Positions 21,232 through 37,776 of a stretch of DNA of 64,000 nucleotides are shown one piece after another (the first letter of the stretch is position 1; every line of letters begins with the position of its first letter). The position numbers and the translations under genes were made by a program. The stretch is taken from contig CP136064.1 of the NCBI GenBank assembly GCA_032622095.1, positions 7,433,512 through 7,497,511 of the forward strand. Reading direction: 5' to 3'. This DNA comes from Siphonodentalium dalli (lineage: Eukaryota > Mollusca > Scaphopoda > Gadilida > Siphonodentaliidae). A model generated the notes under the pieces. The model made no database searches. It was not told where the DNA came from and was given only the letters and a program-made list of their open reading frames with translations.

Positions 21232-21471
21232 ATGGCCCACTGGCCATAGTGCCCATGTCTGGGGGGATACTGGGCCATAGTGCCCATGTCTGGGGGGTAC
21301 TGGGCCATAGTGCCCATGTCTGGGGGGTACTGGGCCATAGTGCCCATGTCTGGGGGGTACTGGGCCATAGTGCCCATGTCTGGGAGGTACTGGGCCATAG
21401 TTTCCCCCTGAGGATAGATGTTCCTGTCATTGATGTGACATTTCTGATCGAAAAAATGAAAATGGACTTAG
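21232..21471. repeat. Left inverted terminal repeat of the Polinton, 30-bp tandem units
   Basis: Five to six copies of a 30-bp unit (tgggccatagtgcccatgtc then tggggggtac), followed by gaggatagatgttcctgtca and a further ~45 bp. The reverse complement lies at 37493-37776. The open frames translated as PPDMGTMAQY repeats come from this array and are not genes. Confidence 0.93.
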
Positions 21472-21851
21472 ACATTTTTTCATTACTAATTTAAAGTTTG
21501 TATAATTCTGACCAGAGATGACACATCGACACGAACAGAATCAATTGGTGGGGATCCTACAGTGAAAACGATTTTGTTGAAATTTATCATTTATTTTTCA
21601 AAAACAAGAACAAGAACAATGAACAATAATATATTATTATACATCAATAATATTAACAAAGAACAATAATTTATGTACAAAACAAGGTCTCAGATTTGAA
21701 GAAACTTAATTGAACATCCTACAACATCCTACGCTGAATCAATAACAAAAGAGTCTATTTTGTGGAGTTGTTGACACATTCGTTGTTATCTGGTCGTCTT
21801 CTTCTTTGCGTTGTATGTATATCAGCCGTCGATGTCCTGGTAAAGTTTAAT

Positions 21852-28866: not shown

Positions 28867-29562
28867 TTAACGACGTGTGAATTTAGTTTTTAAACAGAAA
28901 TCTCCATAGCTGTAAATATTTCCAAACATTTCAATAATCCAAGTATTATAGTCTTCTATTCTTCTGTTTGTTCTGTAAACAAAAAAATCATTTCCTATAA
29001 TGTTTTTAAGTTTTGCATATGTTGACATTTTTTTTGTTAACAAATACCCATAGATCCTAGGAACTGGTTTAAAGGTTCCCCTAGCAAGAGGATAATTATC
29101 TTCATACTTTGTATAATGAATATAGTCATGTTCATCAAAAGTTTCTAAATCTAAATGGTGTTCATCACCACCAAATATCCAAAAATCAGATATTCTTTCA
29201 ATGAGAAAAAATGTTTTGAATTTAATAAATGATTTAATATATTTTTGAGAGAAATGAGAAAATATACTTGTCTCAAGATAGTCCAATCTCTGTAAACATT
29301 CGTCGACATCACAGCATCGTAGTATTGCTTTCTTTTCTCTTTCAAACCAGACTTCTTGTAATTCCTTCTTTATCTCTGGAATAAGTGTTGACTGTGCCAC
29401 CAAATATCCATAAATCTTCTCAGCAATTTCTGGAGGTACTACTCCTGTCAACATCTTGACATGAAATGACTCAACATCTCCATCCGTATGGATATGTGTG
29501 AATACCATTGACGAGTTTTCGTTTTGTGTACACCGATCTGAAAGTTTTGGTTTGACACTCAC
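28867..29562 (-). CDS. Conserved Polinton protein downstream of the polymerase, unknown
   Basis: 231 codons as read; the first ~30 overlap the end of the polymerase region, so the true start is probably the Met of MVFTHIHTDGD. Contains HVKMLTGVVPPEIAEKIYGYLV, EIKKELQEVWFEREKKAIL and IERISDFWIFG. Similar segments (IKRQLKETFFSRESKIIV) are seen in the older element at 60.8-61.0 kb, so the gene is conserved in this lineage. Helical and mixed-charge; no catalytic motif seen. Confidence 0.6.
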   Translation of the reverse strand: MSVKPKLSDRCTQNENSSMVFTHIHTDGDVESFHVKMLTGVVPPEIAEKIYGYLVAQSTLIPEIKKELQEVWFEREKKAILRCCDVDECLQRLDYLETSIFSHFSQKYIKSFIKFKTFFLIERISDFWIFGGDEHHLDLETFDEHDYIHYTKYEDNYPLARGTFKPVPRIYGYLLTKKMSTYAKLKNIIGNDFFVYRTNRRIEDYNTWIIEMFGNIYSYGDFCLKTKFTRR

Positions 29563-32500
29563 TAATCAGTTGATGGTACTTTTGTCTTTTAATTCTGGAA
29601 GGATACTCAACAACAGTTTTGAAATTTTCACGATCATTAACACATTGTACCATTGTTTCAAAATTAACTTTTTGACTTGCGCTGTAATCAAGAGTGATAC
29701 CTTTTACCTTACATTTGGTGTATCTTCTCCCATCTTTGATGTATTCATATCCGTAGTTCTTTGGCCCAAGTCCAACAAATTTGACAATCTTTGCATCTGG
29801 ATGTTCGTCGCTCCATTTCCCCAATCTTCCTTCGATAGTTTTGATGTTCTTCTTTGATGGATCACTGACATACATACAGCTGTCTGTATCAAAATACAGC
29901 ACTCTATCTCCAAGTTTTTTAAAAACTTTATACAATTGTAATCTTGCATACGCTGTAACAAAAGAAGCAACAACAACATTTGCTGAATGATGAGGTTCAA
30001 TATTATCTAAAATATCAACATAATTTACCAGAATGAATTTGTCACCATCAAGAAGTGTAACATTTTGAACAATTATATTGTTACTAGTGAGCAATTCAAA
30101 ATAACGTGATGGCTTATCCACATACTCTGTTTTTGACATAAGATTTCTTTGTGCATTCTTACCCCATATACAATTAATCATAATTTTAGATATTTGGCGT
30201 TTTCCTGGATTCTTCTCGATGTTCTCCAATTTTATACCCTCAGCTGCATAATAATCCTGTACAAACTTTTGCTTCTGTTCTTCTGTCTCAACACCAAATG
30301 GATAACCACTACATTCCTGTTTGATCTTTAGATGTTTGTCGATATAGGATTTGTATATTTCATCTGTCCAATCTGTCCAATGCCAAATTTGGTACACATC
30401 AAGTATTTTGTAGCCAACATCCATTGCTTTGAATAATTCTGGCATGGTCCACACTCCGGTTATAGCTCGTTCTTCTTCTGAATGGTTACATGTCTCGTTC
30501 TCATTGATGGCCCAAGTGTTGCACAAAGTAAAAACCATTTTGTTGTTACAATGAATCGGTAGAACTGGAATATACAATTTCGATGGTGGTAAAATTGTAC
30601 ATTTAACAAGCCCCGCATAGTCTCTAATGTGTTCTTGATCGATCTGCTCTTGGCTCAAAATTTCTGGATGTCCAACAGGGTAGAATTTATGTTTGTTGCA
30701 ATATGGATACAACGAACACACATCGATGAACTTGATTTCTTTTGAGGAATCTTGATCAATTTCCTCGTACAATTTGATGGCATTTGTACGTCCACCAAAC
30801 AATGCTTCTCTTGGCAAAATGGGGTCTCGATGTTTGTAGAAAGATTCCATTTTTTGTTTGAATTTCACATCCGATTTCATTCTTTCGTCGATCTGATGTC
30901 CCCAAATTGATTCAACTCTGTAACCAAGACTTTCCAGTTCATCTTTCTTCTGTTGAGTTCTTGTATATAATGCTTCCATGGTGAGCATCGTATAGGGATT
31001 CTTGTATTGTCTGTTGTTGTAACATTTTGGACATCCATGAAACAGACATCCATTCATCTCAAAAACTGTTCTTGTGGCTTCCTCATATCCATCGACGTAG
31101 TGTCCACCAATCTTGATTTCTCCTCCATTCAAAGCATGCTTAATTGTTATCATACGTGACAATGATAGATGTTGAAGCTAACGTATCGCTTTCATGGAAT
31201 AGTTTTTAGCACATGGGTATCCACCATCTGGAATGATTCCAATTGTTTTCTCTGGCATTGAATTCTTCCTCCATGCCAAATTGCAAACTTGCGTCAATGT
31301 TATTGACTCAATGAACGGGTCAATCTGTTCTGTTTCCAATATGTATTTCCTGAAATTTCCACATCCACGGCGAAAAATATCCACGTCTGATTTGCAGTAC
31401 TTCTCCATCTCTTCTTGGAAGTTGAATATCACGTAATTTTCTATTTTCTCATTGTACCATTCAAAGAATTTCTCTCGATTTTCCACGCTCATCATGTCTG
31501 GTTTGTAGTAATCAGAAGCCAAGTAAGGTCCAATGTAATTTTGAAACTTTGGTGAATTCGCCCAATGTGGAAAGTGTCCTTTCGTCATCTCATTCAGCTG
31601 AAAAGTTTGTGAAAACTTTTAAAGCGGCATCATCAGAAAACTCAGAGAATCAATAACTTTCACGCTGTTGCATTTTAAACTGAGAATTTTGTTTCCATTC
31701 ATGATCAGTTCTGGTTTATGAATTCCACTTTGTATGAGTGCTTGAAGTAGAAACTGTCCATCGTATCCCTGAGCATTATGTGCTATTGCAACACATCCTT
31801 TGTGATCTTGGTGGAATAACCAGTTTGTGAAGTCTGTTAAAACGTTGTCACCCTTGAATACAAATTCTCTGGAATCCGGTCCGCATGTTTCACATTTTTC
31901 TTCGATTGGTTTGCACATGCAATCTCCACAAGCGGTATGTGCAACACAGAAGTTTGGAATATGAACACCTATGTCTTGTCTGCATTCAAAGTCAAAGAAT
32001 ACATATGGAATCTTTGCAGGTTTCTTTTCCGGTGATTCATATTTTGGAATGTAGCACCTGTGATCTGCTTCAACGATTTCTTTGCAATGTTTGCATTTCT
32101 TCAACCCCGCACATATATGTCTGCTTGATTTATTGGTGAGAATTTCTTCATCACAATTGTTGCATAGTTGAACCAAATCACATATTTTTCTTTTCTGTTT
32201 TCCTTCCGTCTTCAAATGGTTGTCGAAACAAGATTTACTTCTGAATGATCGTCGACACGTTCTACACTTCACCCAATTTGTGAAATTACACTGTGTCAAT
32301 GACCAGCATGCACAAACAAATCTGCATCGATGATCGCCACGACTTTTGAATCCAATGTCACAGAATTCGCAGTAGTAGCTGGTGCCTAGAAATCCTTTGA
32401 TTGATGTTATGGTGTCGAAGTGATTGTTGTTGTAGTAGATGTGTACACATTTGCTCTCCGAACACATTTCTGCAGGTTCAAATAGAAATCCAGCGCCAGC

Positions 32501-33436
32501 AAATTCATTGTGAATTTTCACAACATATTCTGGTTACAATATTTCTTGAATCTTGTGGAACTCATTGATACTGCAAACTGTATCGTGCGGAATGCCAGCA
32601 CGGTTGAGTAGATTTTTTGCGGCATCTGTTTGTGCTGTGTATATTGATTGTCTTATTCTTTTCCATTTCTTTGACCAGCACGCAGATCCATCACTATCTG
32701 CCTTACACATTCCGACGACAATAGATCTTGCCATACACATAACATCATCAGCATTTTCAATCCGGACAATACTTCTTTTTACATTTGTCAGCTTTTTCTT
32801 GTCTGCAAATGGTCCATAATGTAGTGAGTGTCGTGTACCACCTTCCGGAATATCTGTAACGAAGATTTCGAAATTGAGTGCACCGTCATGAATTGTAAAG
32901 TCTGCATTTGATTGAACTACATTTTGAATATTATCCATGAGTGTCCCACCATTCAATTCACTGGCTTTTGTGAATGGAATGAAAATGCTCATATCAAGTC
33001 CTGGATGATTTATCGTAACTCTGATTCTTGTCTTCTCATTTGCTGAACATTTCTGTTTCAATTCTTCTGTCAACTTCTCATATATCTCTGGAATGTTCTC
33101 GATTGGATCTGTAAATTTCTCGAATTTCACACCAAATTGTCGTGCTGCTGATTTAAATTTTCTGGAAAATTTCTCCGAGTTCAGCTCCAATTTGAAATAT
33201 TTTGTTGGATTGAACACAACACGCTCTCTAGCCAGACTTCTCTTTCTCTTCCCACCAATTTCTCTATTCTGTCTTCGACTGCGTCCAATCTGCCCATCAC
33301 TAGAACTTTCTTCACTTTCTGCCCCATCAGTTTCCATATCACTCTCTTCAATAACTGCAGGCCTTGGTCTTTTTCTAACAATATCTTCTTCGCTGGTGGC
33401 GTCGTCTGAAACAGGTCTTTTAATTCTCTTAAACAT
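29471..33436 (-). pseudogene. PolB: Polinton protein-primed family B DNA polymerase (PolB)
   Basis: One polymerase gene region, present in several open pieces. In order: a nuclear-localisation-like N-terminus (KRIKRP, VRKRPRP), a long N-terminal domain with VVFNPTKYFKLELNSEKFS, a Cys/His-rich zinc-binding part, exonuclease motifs PYVFFDFECRQD (Exo I) and AIAHNAQGYDGQFLLQ (Exo II), polymerase motif A DVCSLYPYCNKHKFYPVGHP, motif B KIMINCIWGKNAQR and motif C YFDTDSCMY. These are diagnostic of protein-primed PolB, which replicates Polinton DNA from its ends. The gene diverges from the CCHC gene at a shared palindromic promoter. It looks broken about three times. Confidence 0.92.
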
Positions 33437-33488
33437 TTTTGTCTTCAGTTTTGTCAGCAAAAAATATTGCGACTGACTTCTTCGGAGT

Positions 33489-33580
33489 TGAAGTGTAAAG
33501 TGTAGAATTACACCTGCTTTTATAGCATTCGATGCATTCGATGCTATAAAAGCAGGTGTAATTCTACACTTTACACTTCA
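33489..33580. promoter_or_regulatory. Palindromic bidirectional promoter with mirrored TATA boxes
   Basis: Arms gaagtgtaaagtgtagaatt + acacctgcttttatagc and their exact complement flank a short centre made of attcgatgc repeats. Each arm carries gctataaaagc, a textbook TATA box, pointing outward. The plus-strand TATA (about 33543-33553) lies ~40 bases before the CCHC gene ATG; the minus-strand one serves PolB. Beyond the arms the mirror symmetry continues into the first ~33 codons of both genes, interrupted on the PolB side by an extra ~50 bases before the ATG. Confidence 0.88.
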
Positions 33581-33583
33581 AAA

Positions 33584-34183
33584 ATGTTTAAGAGAATTAA
33601 AAGACCTGTTTCAGACGACGCCACCAGCGAAGAAGATATTGTTAGAAAAAGACCAAGGCCTGCAGTTATTGAAGAGAGCGATATTGAGCTACATAAAGAA
33701 GATTCAAAAAAATCTACACAACCACAGACTAGAAAAATTCAAGATAATCTTGTCGAATTGAGACAGATCTCTACCGATTTGTTTAAACTTTGTAACAAAA
33801 TGCAATGGCACGAGAAACAAGAGAAAAACAGAGCTGATAAAAATTGGAAACCGCCATATGGTTACTGTTACAAATGCGGCCAAGACACCCATTGGTCCTT
33901 CCATTGTAAAGTAGATTTCGGCGACAAAAAAAATGTGAAAACTATACAAAAGTCTACAAGCAGTAACAATACAAGAACAAATGCAGATATCAAAACTGAA
34001 GAGATGTCTACAACATCAGATTTTTCCAAACAAGACCGACCTGTTGATCCTACGAATGATTCACAGAACAAATCTGAAGATAAACATCCAGAAATTGAAA
34101 ATTACAAGAAAACTTCCCAGAAAAAGAAGCTGAGACCATTCTACATTCCAAAAACAGATAAACGAATCCACACAAACAATTGA
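33584..34183 (+). CDS. CCHC zinc-knuckle protein sharing the PolB N-terminus
   Basis: 199 codons. Residues 1-33 (MFKRIKRPVSDDATSEEDIV and on) are identical to the start of the polymerase on the other strand. After that the sequences part. A coiled region (QDNLVELRQISTDLFKLCNK) is followed by a perfect CX2CX4HX4C zinc knuckle at Cys95, Cys98, His103, Cys108 (CYKCGQDTHWSFHC), then a polar tail rich in Lys, Ser and Thr. Zinc knuckles of this kind bind single-stranded nucleic acid. The shared N-terminus looks like a nuclear-localisation module. A poly(A) signal aataaa lies at 34199, 16 bases past the stop. Such a gene is not part of the standard Polinton set known to me. Confidence 0.82.
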   Translation: MFKRIKRPVSDDATSEEDIVRKRPRPAVIEESDIELHKEDSKKSTQPQTRKIQDNLVELRQISTDLFKLCNKMQWHEKQEKNRADKNWKPPYGYCYKCGQDTHWSFHCKVDFGDKKNVKTIQKSTSSNNTRTNADIKTEEMSTTSDFSKQDRPVDPTNDSQNKSEDKHPEIENYKKTSQKKKLRPFYIPKTDKRIHTNN

Positions 34184-34271
34184 AAATTTTGTTGTGTGAA
34201 TAAATTATGAATTGAACAATCGTGTTTTGTTTTTTCAGCTATGAAAGAGTAACCTTTTGGGAAATGTGGGT

Positions 34272-34287
34272 GGCCCTGAAAAGGGCC
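34272..34287 (-). terminator. Histone-type 3' stem-loop after the 114-residue gene
   Basis: On the minus strand it reads ggccct-tttc-agggcc: a six-base-pair stem with a four-base TTTC loop, preceded by aaaac and followed by accca. This is the metazoan replication-dependent histone mRNA stem-loop pattern including its flanks. It lies about 20 bases after the stop codon of the gene it follows, as in short histone 3' ends. Confidence 0.85.
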
Positions 34288-34307
34288 GTTTTCTCTTTTT
34301 CCAGGAT

Positions 34308-34652
34308 TCATAAGAATTCTGACAAATCAGGATATATCCCGTTGGGATTAATTGTCACAGACCAAATAGGATTTGATCTGTGCGCCGCACCAGCCTGAGC
34401 AAAACTGTCAATCGCTGCATTGCACAGATCTTTCTTCTTGATCTGTGACAAGATCTCCACGAGATCAAGATTGCTTGATTCTTGAACTTTAGGCAATGGT
34501 CGTCGGCGAGCCAAAAAATCTCCTATCATCTGCTTCTGAACCCTACTTTGTTCAGGAGAATCCTGCCATTTCCTATATCTTCTTATTTCCGTCTCCTCTG
34601 ACGAATCTCTCTTCCTCCACAACTTCTTGAGAAATTTCTTTAAAGACGGCAT
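34308..34652 (-). CDS. Small basic protein of accessory module A, unknown
   Basis: 114 codons, MPSLKKFLKKLWRKRDSSEE: the first 16 residues would form a basic amphipathic helix (LKKFLKKLWRK). Continues with QKQMIGDFLARRRPLPKV, a LDLVEILSQIKKKDL segment and ends IYPDLSEFL. No family recognised. It diverges from the gene at 35266 across a ~0.6-kb intergenic region that is nearly identical to the one in module B, and ends ~20 bases before a histone-type stem-loop. The amphipathic basic N-terminus could bind membrane or nucleic acid. Confidence 0.62.
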   Translation of the reverse strand: MPSLKKFLKKLWRKRDSSEETEIRRYRKWQDSPEQSRVQKQMIGDFLARRRPLPKVQESSNLDLVEILSQIKKKDLCNAAIDSFAQAGAAHRSNPIWSVTINPNGIYPDLSEFL

Positions 34653-34663
34653 AATGAATGAAG

Positions 34664-35195
34664 TTCACTGAAAAAGTGAAAATATTTGTATACATTTGAC
34701 ACGGGCGACAATGAAATCACATGTCGCATTGGCGTTAAAATTGACAAATATTTCCTGACGTTGTGTTTTTTCAGAGACGGATCAACATGCATATTTTTCT
34801 TGATCATTATTGCATAGCGATCAAACAAATGTTTTTAATTTCGTTAGATCATTATCTATTATTTGGTACACATGATTGATATATTTATTACCTCGTTAGG
34901 AAAATATGGAATGTTTTTCTAGTTTTTGTTTTTGGAATTGTACATATTTTATACATAAAAACTGAACACAAGAAACATACTGAACATTTTTCTTGATCAT
35001 TGCATTTGATAACTTTACTTGGTCATCGTTTATGAACGAAGATGATTTCATATGTTAAAACATCTTAATTAATTGTATATACTATCATGAATTTAATCTA
35101 TAACATATCGAAATGGTGAAACTAACAGATAATGCACTGAAAAGAAACACAACGTCAGGAAACATTTGTCATTTTTAACGTCAAAGTATTATGTG
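34664..35195. promoter_or_regulatory. Divergent promoter region of module A (direct repeat copy 1)
   Basis: About 530 bp, nearly identical base for base to 36326-36846. Inside, the word cctgacgttgtgttttttca near the left edge is mirrored near the right edge (tgaaaagaaacacaacgtcagg), so the region is roughly symmetric, as expected of a two-way promoter. Repeated tttttcttgatcatt words also occur. It separates two outward-pointing genes. Confidence 0.82.
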
Positions 35196-35265
35196 CTTTC
35201 TCTACCGCCCGCGCAATCGTGATACAAGTTCAAGACGGATCTTCAGACTTATTCTACATTCAAAG

Positions 35266-35484
35266 ATGACTGCAATACCCGAACCCTTGATGGCGATACT
35301 GAGAGGAACTATGGGGATAACACCGCAGATAATGTGGGGCAGGTACGCAAGAGAAGTGACCGACCGTTCAAAGCTGATCATGCAAAAAAGAACAGCAACC
35401 ATACCAACAGAGTCTAGCTGTCCTATTTTATCTGAGGCGGGGCAACAAAAGCAAAATTCTCACTCTGAGAAAATTGGGGAGTGA
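35266..35484 (+). CDS. Small protein of accessory module A, plus strand, unknown
   Basis: 72 codons from MTAIPEPLMAIL. I chose this ATG because the shared promoter copy continues up to the words attcaaagATGACTGC in both modules. The rest (MWGRYAREVTDRSKLIMQ, then a Ser/Gln-rich tail) has no recognised family. Two histone-type stem-loops follow within 65 bases of the stop. Whether it is a complete protein is uncertain. Confidence 0.5.
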   Translation: MTAIPEPLMAILRGTMGITPQIMWGRYAREVTDRSKLIMQKRTATIPTESSCPILSEAGQQKQNSHSEKIGE

Positions 35485-35504
35485 ATTTTGATGTCGTACA
35501 AAAC

Positions 35505-35547
35505 GGCCCTTTTCAGGGCCAAAACAAAAACGGTTCTTTTCAGGACC
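35505..35547 (+). terminator. Two tandem histone-type 3' stem-loops
   Basis: First: ggccct-tttc-agggcc at 35505-35520, preceded by aaaac and followed by aaaac. Second: ggttct-tttc-aggacc at 35532-35547, with one G-T pair in the stem, preceded by aaaac and followed by aacca. Both have the six-pair stem and TTTC loop of histone mRNAs and lie in the sense orientation of the gene ending at 35484. Confidence 0.82.
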
Positions 35548-35757
35548 AACCAATTTTTTCAAAAAGAAAAACTTTTAGCATTGCTTAAGAACTAATAATG
35601 TTCATTGTACCCTATGTTTCGTTTTGAAAAAATCACGCCACGAATAATTTAAAACAAAATATACTTGCAAATATTTGTTGTTGAATAAATTATGAAATGA
35701 ACAATCGTGTTTTGTTTTTTTCAGCTATGAAAGAGTAACCTTTTGGGAAATGTGTGT

Positions 35758-35773
35758 GGCCCTGAAAAGGGCC
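35758..35773 (-). terminator. Histone-type 3' stem-loop after the 162-residue gene
   Basis: On the minus strand ggccct-tttc-agggcc, with aaaac before and acacaca after. It sits 22 bases past the stop codon at 35796. The ~100 bp around it duplicate 34187-34293. Confidence 0.85.
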
Positions 35774-35795
35774 GTTTTAAATTTATCATCTGACT

Positions 35796-36284
35796 TTAAC
35801 ACCGTTTTGTGTTTTTCTTATATCTTGACATATCTTTCCCATGAGAACCGAGAGCTTTTGCGAATTCATCACAATTCTCTGTATCTCTAGATTCTTTACA
35901 AGGAAGATGAAATCTGACTTTTGTCTCAGTAGAAGCCTTCATGACACTCTTAGGTTGTTTTTCTTTCGTCGCCGATGATTTTGCTTTTTTGATCTGTTTC
36001 TGCTCTTTCGATCTCTCAACATCATGAACCCTGATTGGGATATCTATCTGTTCTGCAACGAAACGAAGATTCACTTTCACTTCTTGATGCGTTACTTGCG
36101 TTTTCACGTCAATATCCCTGCGAAGACATCTCAGTTCATCTAAAATCGCTTTTAAAATGAGTGTAGCACCACCTATAGTCATTGTCGTATTAGCTTGGAC
36201 TGTTGACTGTGGCGCAGCATATGTATTCTGTGCAACAGGACTACTGAATATCTCACTCTGAAGAAATTCTGTTAACGGATCCAT
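35796..36284 (-). CDS. Protein of accessory module B with basic tail, unknown
   Basis: 162 codons from MDPLTEFLQSEIFSSPVAQN (a further in-frame Met lies 11 codons upstream). Residues 40-90 look helical (GGATLILKAILDELRCLRRD and VNLRFVAEQIDIPIRV), possibly a coiled coil. After that comes a lysine-rich stretch (KEQKQIKKAKSSATKEKQPK) like a nuclear-localisation or linker-histone tail, ending KDMSRYKKNTKRC. No family recognised. It diverges from the OTU/vertnin-like gene across the same promoter sequence as module A but shares no protein similarity with the module A gene. Confidence 0.62.
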   Translation of the reverse strand: MDPLTEFLQSEIFSSPVAQNTYAAPQSTVQANTTMTIGGATLILKAILDELRCLRRDIDVKTQVTHQEVKVNLRFVAEQIDIPIRVHDVERSKEQKQIKKAKSSATKEKQPKSVMKASTETKVRFHLPCKESRDTENCDEFAKALGSHGKDMSRYKKNTKRC

Positions 36285-36325
36285 CTCTTGATAGCAATGC
36301 AATGTAAGGTTGATCAAATTCGAAA

Positions 36326-36846
36326 ATATTTGTATACATTTGACACGGGCGACAATGAAATTACATGTCGCATTGGCGTTAAAATTGACAAATATTTCCT
36401 GACGTTGTGTTTTTTCAGAGACGGATCACCATGCATATTTTTCTTGATCATTATTGCATAGCGATCAAACAAATGTTTTTAATTTCGTTAGATCATTATC
36501 TATTATTTGGTACACATGATTGATATATTTATTACCTCGTTAGGCAAATATGGAATGTTTTTCTAGTTTTTGTTTTTGGAATTGTACATATTTTATACAT
36601 AAAAACTGAACACAAGAAACATACTGAACATTTTTCTTGATCATTGCATTTGATAACTTTACTTGGTCATCGTTTATGAACGAAGATGAATTCATATGTT
36701 AAAACATCTTAATTAATTGTATATACTATCATGAATTTAATCTATAACATATCGAAATGGTGAAACTAACAGATAATGCACTGAAAAGAAACACAACGTC
36801 AGGAAACATTTGTCATTTTTAACGTCAAAGTGTTATGTGCTTTCTC
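36326..36846. promoter_or_regulatory. Divergent promoter region of module B (direct repeat copy 2)
   Basis: Direct copy of 34664-35195 with only a few base differences. Contains the same mirrored cctgacgttgtgttttttca words and tttttcttgatcatt words. The identity continues through the leader as far as the ATG at 36912, with more differences. Its genes differ from those of module A. Confidence 0.82.
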
Positions 36847-36911
36847 TACCGCCCGCACAATCGTGATATATGTTCAAGCACGACAGCGAACAATTTATTC
36901 TGCATTCAAAG

Positions 36912-37376
36912 ATGACTGCTGTAAACATAACCGATCTTGACGAGATAATGGCCCGTGGGGTATACTGTAAAGCAGTGTACGGCGAAGAAATATCTCTATT
37001 TTGGAAGGCACTCAGCATTGGGGTTTACGGGACGACCGATGGATGGATGGTTCTGAGAGATGCGGCCGTTGACCTGTACTACACAGAGAGGGACGAACTT
37101 GGTGCGTCGGCACAAGACTTACGACACTCACCACTTTTGGCCGAATCAAGATTGATGGTTGAATTAGCGGCGACTGTTATACAGCGACCTATCGTCATGT
37201 TTGATGCTACCAAAGGCGGCTACAAATCAACACCAAGATTCAAGTCATCAATACCTCTAGTGTGGATCCCCCACGTTTGCCACGAGCATTATTGTGAATG
37301 CGAAATATGGATGAGGAGAGGAGACAAATCAATTGATGTTTTGGCGAACAAAGAAGTTCAATGTGGCGGATTCTAA
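36912..37376 (+). CDS. OTU/vertnin-like domain protein of accessory module B
   Basis: 154 codons from MTAVNITDLDE; the start is set by the ATG shared with module A. The middle (SLFWKALSIGVYGTTDGWMVLRDAAVDLYY, residues 28-57) fits the LF.ALS...YG....H..LR...V pattern of OTU and vertnin-type domains. The later part (LMVELAATVIQRPIVMFDAT, and IPLVWIP...HEHYCECEIW) fits their C-terminal strands and His region. OTU proteins remove ubiquitin; vertnin-type relatives may be non-catalytic. The assignment is by motif pattern only and I make no claim about activity. A histone-type stem-loop follows 19 bases after the stop. Confidence 0.55.
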   Translation: MTAVNITDLDEIMARGVYCKAVYGEEISLFWKALSIGVYGTTDGWMVLRDAAVDLYYTERDELGASAQDLRHSPLLAESRLMVELAATVIQRPIVMFDATKGGYKSTPRFKSSIPLVWIPHVCHEHYCECEIWMRRGDKSIDVLANKEVQCGGF

Positions 37377-37395
37377 ACTATAACAAAAATAAAAC

Positions 37396-37411
37396 GGCCC
37401 TTGTCAGGGCC
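37396..37411 (+). terminator. Histone-type 3' stem-loop after the OTU/vertnin-like gene
   Basis: ggccct-tgtc-agggcc, six-pair stem and four-base loop, preceded by aaaac and followed by accaac, close to the histone accca flank. It lies 19 bases past the stop codon, in sense orientation. Confidence 0.82.
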
Positions 37412-37492
37412 ACCAACTGATCGAAAAGATACTCTTGATAGCTAATTGATATTTTCCAAAGTGAGATTTTCCTTTTGAAAAAAATAATTCTA

Positions 37493-37776
37493 AGTCTATT
37501 TTCATTTTTTCGATCAGAAATGTCACATCAATGACAGGAACATCTATCCTCAGGGGGAAACTATGGCCCAGTACCCCCCCCCAGACATGGGCACTATGGC
37601 CCAGTACCCCCCAGACATGGGCACTATGGCCCAGTACCCCCCAGACATGGGCACTATGGCCCAGTACCCCCCAGACATGGGCACTATGGCCCAGTACCCC
37701 CCCAGACATGGGCACTATGGCCCAGTATCCCCCAGACATGGGCACTATGGGGGGTACTGGGCCATAGTGCCCCCCA
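37493..37776. repeat. Right inverted terminal repeat of the Polinton
   Basis: Reverse complement of 21232-21471: the inner phrase (tgacaggaacatctatcctc) followed by about six copies of the 30-bp unit seen as gggcactatggcccagtacc plus a C-run. The outermost part contains a small inverted segment (ggcactatggggggtactgg) not seen at the left end. Copy number differs between the two ends. Confidence 0.92.

Follow-up and report, generated by a model that had tools for sequence, protein, structure and literature searches.

What ends the transcripts of four small genes in a virus-like DNA element of a mollusc genome? The question is raised by a 64,000-nucleotide stretch of the scaphopod Siphonodentalium dalli (C4:7433512-7497511), hereafter the window, meaning the whole stretch analyzed; the genome comprises 2.23 Gb in nine contigs, and C1, C5, C8, and C9 are others of them. 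The window holds a single Polinton at ~21.23-37.77 kb, with inverted arrays of a 30-bp repeat at both borders. Two divergent pairs of small accessory genes, A114/B72 and C162/D154, occupy its right end. A first-pass annotation, made from the sequence alone, held that these genes end in stem-loops of the type found in replication-dependent histone mRNAs, and that they may be expressed in S phase as RNA without poly(A). The present analysis supports that interpretation. We put the probability at about 0.75 that the four genes form a regulon using the host histone mRNA pathway, that is, the stem-loop-binding protein (SLBP) and the U7 small nuclear ribonucleoprotein (snRNP).

All five stem-loops were recovered at the coordinates and on the strands first given for them. 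Each lies in the sense strand behind a stop codon, at 20 nt for A114, 20 and 47 nt for B72, 22 nt for C162, and 19 nt for D154, in agreement with the 19-22 bases, plus a tandem second stem-loop, noted earlier. Scored with Infernal, all five match the Rfam histone 3' stem-loop model RF00032 at E<1, and two of them exceed its gathering score of 34, an above-threshold hit being one of the tests proposed with the first-pass annotation; no additional RF00032 match was found anywhere in the 64 kb at E up to 10. In 200 dinucleotide shuffles such stem-loops numbered 0.03 on average and 1 at most, against five observed, and with AAAAC required upstream of the stem the shuffles gave 0. The stem-loop was said to mark all four genes of the module and not the PolB, CCHC, capsid, and protease genes; none of 17 other open reading frames (ORFs) of the element examined has one within 120 nt past its stop. 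In place of a stem-loop, AATAAA lies 16 nt past the stop of the CCHC gene. A paired change sets the two B72 stem-loops apart (GGCCCT/AGGGCC vs GGTCCT/AGGACC); in the window copy the second stem reads GGTTCT/AGGACC. The TGTC loop of D154 is unique to the window copy, and the loop is TTTC in 16 other stem-loop-bearing D154 copies.

The same 3' end is found in the histone genes of the host, with an identical stem-loop, a similar purine element, and the same spacing. The 16-nt stem-loop of A114 and C162 is that of host H4, H2A, and H2B. The element stem-loops have the six-pair stem and four-base loop of the host ones, apart from one loop base in the window copy of D154 and the paired change in the second B72 stem. 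A purine core, a putative U7 site, lies 13 nt past the stem in 20/20 host stem-loops read (some loci overlap). Among element rows, classed by downstream sequence and including overlapping loci, it lies at 13 nt in 37/42 of the A114 class, 47/47 second B72 stem-loops, and 47/50 of C162; for D154 the distance is 12 nt in 19/20. The B72 element, AAAAAGAAAAACTTTTAGCATTGCT, nearly matches AAAAAGATAAACTATTAGAATTGCT of host H2B. In mammals, a purine core of this kind base-pairs with U7 snRNA at the 5' end of the latter, and the RNA is cleaved at a fixed distance from the core (PMC7026596). A genome search with RF00032, in which the best 75 of 409530 candidates were scored, placed five other copies of this element (L001-L005), not histones, at the top. 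In all, 12 of these 75 matches are in elements: L001-L005, another four across L065-L068, a pair within L057, and one adjoining an A114 copy at C9:99.78 Mb. The remaining 63 are in clusters on C5 and C8, and those read (L006-L008, L045, L046, L069) are histone genes. The SLBP domain PF15247 was found in the host as two neighboring pieces (E 3.1e-13 and 3.9e-4).

This resemblance bears on the possibility that the hairpins are a viral-type signal for cleavage and polyadenylation or for termination, mimivirus-like and unconnected with histone mRNA. Virophages are related to Polintons, a kinship that speaks for such a signal. Mimiviridae polyadenylate their transcripts at terminal hairpins (PMC4402537). 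However, in loop, flanks, and downstream element the sequence is exactly or almost exactly that of host histone genes, and an arbitrary hairpin would not need such a match; we regard this explanation as extremely improbable.

If the host pathway is used, SLBP and the U7 snRNP would cut the accessory transcripts behind the stem-loop, and the resulting mRNAs would end in the stem-loop and lack a poly(A) tail; the remaining genes of the element would use ordinary poly(A) signals. The accessory proteins might then be confined to S-phase cells, or to the SLBP-rich germ line or early embryos, when the DNA of the element can be copied. The S-phase timing of these genes is less certain, because oocytes and early embryos are also rich in histone mRNA. 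A promoter core, CACAACGTCAGGAAAYATTTGTCAWTTTTAACG, has four occurrences in the window, one ahead of each accessory gene, and none elsewhere in the window at up to 3 mismatches. Since this core stands ahead of all four genes and a stem-loop behind all four, promoter and 3' end are common to them.

Table 1. Positions in the window of the Polinton ends, the accessory genes, their promoter regions, and their stem-loops.
Feature	Position	Strand	Remarks
Left terminal inverted repeat of Polinton	21232..21480		Array of 30-bp repeat and unique part
Stem-loop of A114	34272..34287	-	RF00032 match 34248-34292(-), 40.8 bits; purine element at 13 nt
Accessory gene A114, 114 aa	34308..34652	-	Protein search of genome: 446 candidates, best 150 scored, 150/150 scored places match
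Bidirectional promoter region, A114/B72 pair	34678..35265		First 300 nt 99% identical to second copy
Accessory gene B72, 72 aa, rapidly changing	35266..35484	+	ORF list, copy comparison
First stem-loop of B72	35505..35520	+	RF00032 match 35500-35526(+), 21.4 bits; without own purine element at usual distance
Second stem-loop of B72	35532..35547	+	RF00032 match 35527-35573(+), 31.0 bits; purine element at 13 nt
Stem-loop of C162	35758..35773	-	RF00032 match 35734-35778(-), 40.1 bits; purine element at 13 nt
Accessory gene C162, 162 aa	35796..36284	-	ORF list, Pfam scan, copy comparison
Second bidirectional promoter region, C162/D154 pair	36322..36911		
Accessory gene D154, 154 aa	36912..37376	+	ORF list, Pfam scan
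Stem-loop of D154	37396..37411	+	RF00032 match 37391-37436(+), 32.8 bits; purine element at 12 nt
Right terminal inverted repeat of Polinton	37481..37770		Inverted-repeat comparison

Presence of the stem-loops in related elements had been set as a test of the idea, and they are retained both in other copies of the element (family 1) and in a divergent family. Among the distinct family-1 loci read, a stem-loop of at least 5 pairs follows A114 in 39/46, B72 in 38/38, C162 in 34/37, and D154 in 17/20. An exact genome search for ACGGNNCTTTTCAGNNCCAMC gave 1911 places (949 + 962), histone genes and elements not told apart, and 0 matches for the reversed control. Of these, 100 were listed, covering C1 as far as 126 Mb; they form 55 clusters, 27 of them with two or three stem-loops; among these places, 24 of the 27 multi-stem-loop clusters are spaced ~1.2-2.1 kb, like the modules of the element. 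Sixteen stretches, mostly isolated ones, were read among the places listed, and 13 are in element-like DNA. Seven contain family-1 sequence (L114, L115, L117, L118, L121, L125, L126), two constitute family 2 (L119, L123), and four constitute family 3 (L116, L120, L127, L129; L120 and L127 by flanks only). The other three read are L122, L124, and L128.

The 1911 exact matches and the element-like setting of 13/16 stretches would suit a decoy, in which many element stem-loops titrate host SLBP and disturb histone supply. The signals, however, stand at a fixed distance behind coding genes and have the downstream element, as for the making of mRNA, and mean pN/pS is below 1 in the coding parts (unique intact copies: A114 0.47, n=33; D154 0.51, n=19; C162 0.65, n=14; B72 0.74, n=29). 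A decoy role is, in our judgment, very improbable.

In family 2, the gene order in L119 and its neighbor L130 is C162-like, D154-like, A114-like, CCHC, and N-terminal gene. D154 matches its family-2 relative at 58.4 bits and 35% identity, A114 at 20.3 bits, CCHC at 31.3, and the neighboring gene at 94.9 (phmmer with a five-protein set, which makes the E-values flattering); the C162-like gene was recognized by eye, from the residues at its C terminus. The A114-, C162-, and D154-like genes all terminate in a stem-loop. When the window and family 2 are compared without gaps, identity over the 16-nt stem-loop is 1.00 for A114, 0.94 for D154, where the sole difference is the loop change of the window copy, and 1.00 for C162. 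In the following 29 nt it is 0.59, 0.31, and 0.48, respectively, and over a further 30 nt it is 0.53, 0.23, and 0.23. This survival of the stem-loop in a 3' flank that is otherwise largely dissimilar is the strongest evidence for function.

In family 2 (L130 end, L119:131-146) the D154-like gene has the A114-like gene as its partner, a pairing that the window does not show; the genes with stem-loops have thus been shuffled among promoters. The family-2 intergenic region (L119:589-829) is a large near-perfect palindrome between divergent genes, its sequence unlike that of family 1, and holds ACGTCA motifs and TTTTCCCGAA, suggestive of E2F sites. The family-1 promoter core was sought in families 2 and 3 and rejected there, the best matches being 20/33 (L119, L116) and 19 (L123) against a mean of 19.2 and a maximum of 22 in shuffles. 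Family 3 encodes a 145-aa protein that is at best a distant relative of D154 (15.2 bits, 21%; against the family-2 relative, 20.5 bits). Its stem-loop is 13 nt past the stop, close to a tandem-repeat array resembling the ends of the window element, and family 3 is likely a Polinton.

Histone-type stem-loops also occur in other settings. L128:1203-1282 (C1:114.627 Mb) has three in tandem, 32 nt apart, with a like set ~9.7 kb onward; the trio lies ~40 nt ahead of a 359-aa ORF with STPR repeats (PF21107), Helitron-like by eye, and no ORF of at least 60 aa lies upstream of it within the stretch. In L122 (C1:64.26-64.34 Mb) seven stem-loops are listed, six at ~5.6-kb intervals, and the one read is 25 nt behind a 69-aa ORF that has no Pfam match. 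A tight stem-loop pattern matched nothing in IMG/VR; a loose one matched six times, of which 0/6 had an RF00032 match and 0/6 had histone-like flanks. It is fairly probable that several virus-like families in one animal genome run an accessory regulon via the host histone mRNA pathway, with SLBP-bound, poly(A)-free mRNAs timed to replication or to the SLBP-rich germ line or embryos. The elements may now outnumber the histone genes in copies of the stem-loop signal.

Several observations weigh against use of the host histone pathway. Three of the five window stem-loops score under the RF00032 gathering score. Some copies have no stem-loop, having lost it by point changes or deletions, and the downstream element of family 3 is weak. 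Stem-loop conservation inside family 1 is nothing special, for much of the non-coding flanks is equally kept: across ten family-1 copies set against the window, identity is 92-100% for the stem-loop, 88-100% for the non-coding stretch past the B72 downstream element, and 91-98% in eight copies and 0.52 in two for the upstream intergenic part; the B72 coding part alone is plainly less well kept, 0.63 being its lowest value. Family-1 conservation was therefore rejected as proof of selection. U7 snRNA was not identified in the host genome by RF00066 or by Sm-site patterns. The RF00066 search found nothing among the best 65 of 541557 candidates, which does not show absence. The first Sm-site pattern gave 39 matches vs 68 for its reversed control, with 20/39 places read and none convincing as U7; the second gave 253 vs 297, with 17 among the places listed read and none convincing as U7. 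A recurring U7 candidate was rejected as a dispersed repeat with similarity extending over several hundred bases.

Poly(A) signals form a further point of this kind. AATAAA occurs 200 nt past the B72 stop, and another lies 12 nt past the D154 stop, ahead of the stem-loop. In family 2, AWTAAA occurs 82 nt into the stretch behind the A114-like gene and 188 nt into that behind the D154-like gene. Polyadenylated histone transcripts are on record (PMC3661734). These points would fit dual or conditional ends, with the stem-loop used only in S phase or oocytes and polyadenylation otherwise. On the other hand, AWTAAA is missing from the 300 nt past the stop of both A114 and C162, and the hexamers of B72 and D154 may be due to chance, as the DNA is AT-rich; dual ends appear unlikely.

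The elements can take up histone genes together with their 3' ends. At L121:795-1261 (C1:61.128 Mb), the promoter and 5' leader of the element lead into a captured histone H4 gene that has a stem-loop of its own. This gene comes from a third histone array of the host (C9:143.8-144.3 Mb). In the one unit of that array read, identity to L121 is 94.6% from ~65 bp ahead of the ATG to beyond the stem-loop, and element and H4 sequences join around TTATTCTG. Eight further dispersed places match nearly all of the 481 bases of the L121 stretch at 95-100% (best 40 of 691 candidates). Compared with its C9 source, the L121 H4 has 9 non-synonymous and 3 synonymous differences (pN 0.038, pS 0.041), showing no constraint. 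Strong purifying selection, suggested by comparison with a C5 H4 (pN 0.043, pS 0.745), was rejected because the true source is on C9. Capture of a histone gene is a plausible origin of the element signal; the signal of A114, C162, and D154 is older, though, as family 2 has it too.

Such capture, the unconstrained H4 it left, and a family-1 conservation that is not specific to the stem-loop would all fit 3' ends that arrived with histone gene fragments and are carried without present function. Yet the stem-loops occupy the identical place and strand behind four different genes, they are kept in family 2 despite an identity of 0.23-0.53 in the 30 nt beyond, and the stem change between the B72 stem-loops is paired. 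Carriage without function is quite unlikely, and use of the host histone pathway remains the preferred reading.

The terminal inverted repeat arms of the element pair 21242-21387 with 37577-37722 (99%) and 21382-21480 with 37481-37579 (95%). The element encodes a viral-type DNA polymerase B (PolB; PF03175, 87.6 bits), a retroviral-type integrase with a chromodomain (rve PF00665, 47.6 bits), and a candidate adenain-type protease whose PF00770 score of 20.2 bits is below the cut-off of 21.3. A 434-aa candidate for the double jelly-roll capsid protein has no Pfam match, and a packaging ATPase candidate has only sub-threshold P-loop matches in Pfam; both were assigned from size and order, and no relative of the capsid protein was found in IMG/VR. 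The PolB region of this copy (28867-32467) is broken into several adjacent or overlapping ORFs in different frames. A 109-nt inverted repeat (98%; 33333-33441 / 33579-33687) gives the CCHC gene and a divergent gene at 32534-33436 ~33 identical first residues.

None of the four accessory proteins has a Pfam match above the curated cut-off; none matches a histone in Pfam, so by that scan they are not histone genes. Sequence searches of the PDB with A114, C162, and D154 gave nothing useful, and searches of public protein collections with A114 and D154 found no homologues. By eye, we take D154 to be OTU-protease-like in outline, with Ser in the place expected for the catalytic Cys and no family match; its structure model was too poor to use (mean pLDDT 41.9).

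If the histone pathway is used, the element would offer a natural non-histone test of the stem-loop's own effect on timing and translation, and would show how a DNA element ties genes to the host S phase or early embryos. Its accessory genes would be missed by poly(A)-selected RNA data. That the stem-loop is an escape from virus-type shut-off is a weak idea; in an influenza study, PA-X still down-regulated a reporter that carried a histone stem-loop (PMC4744033).

The component parts of this system are already known, and their combination appears to be new. Like other Polintons/Mavericks, the window element has PolB, a chromodomain integrase, a candidate adenain-like protease, and terminal inverted repeats; it differs in its histone-type 3' end regulon. 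To our knowledge, no Polinton with such a regulon has been described. A literature search found no paper joining Polinton/Maverick with a histone-type 3' signal, synonyms and most subscription papers being outside its coverage. Viral histones are comparable in that a DNA element bears a histone gene (the L121 H4), but here H4 is present in some copies only, and the stem-loop genes of the window are non-histone. In Mimiviridae, too, hairpins set the 3' ends of viral transcripts; there, palindromes are the substrate of a viral enzyme that also adds the poly(A) (PMC4402537), whereas the window element has the host histone signal. The element also resembles the 3' end of replication-dependent histone mRNA, which has the identical stem-loop close behind the stop, the A-rich 5' flank, the ACC(C)A 3' flank, and a purine element at matching spacing. 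The stop-to-stem distance is 19-22 nt in the element (47 for the second B72 stem-loop) vs ~29-36 nt in those histone genes of the host that were read, and in the element the stem-loops trail four non-histone genes.

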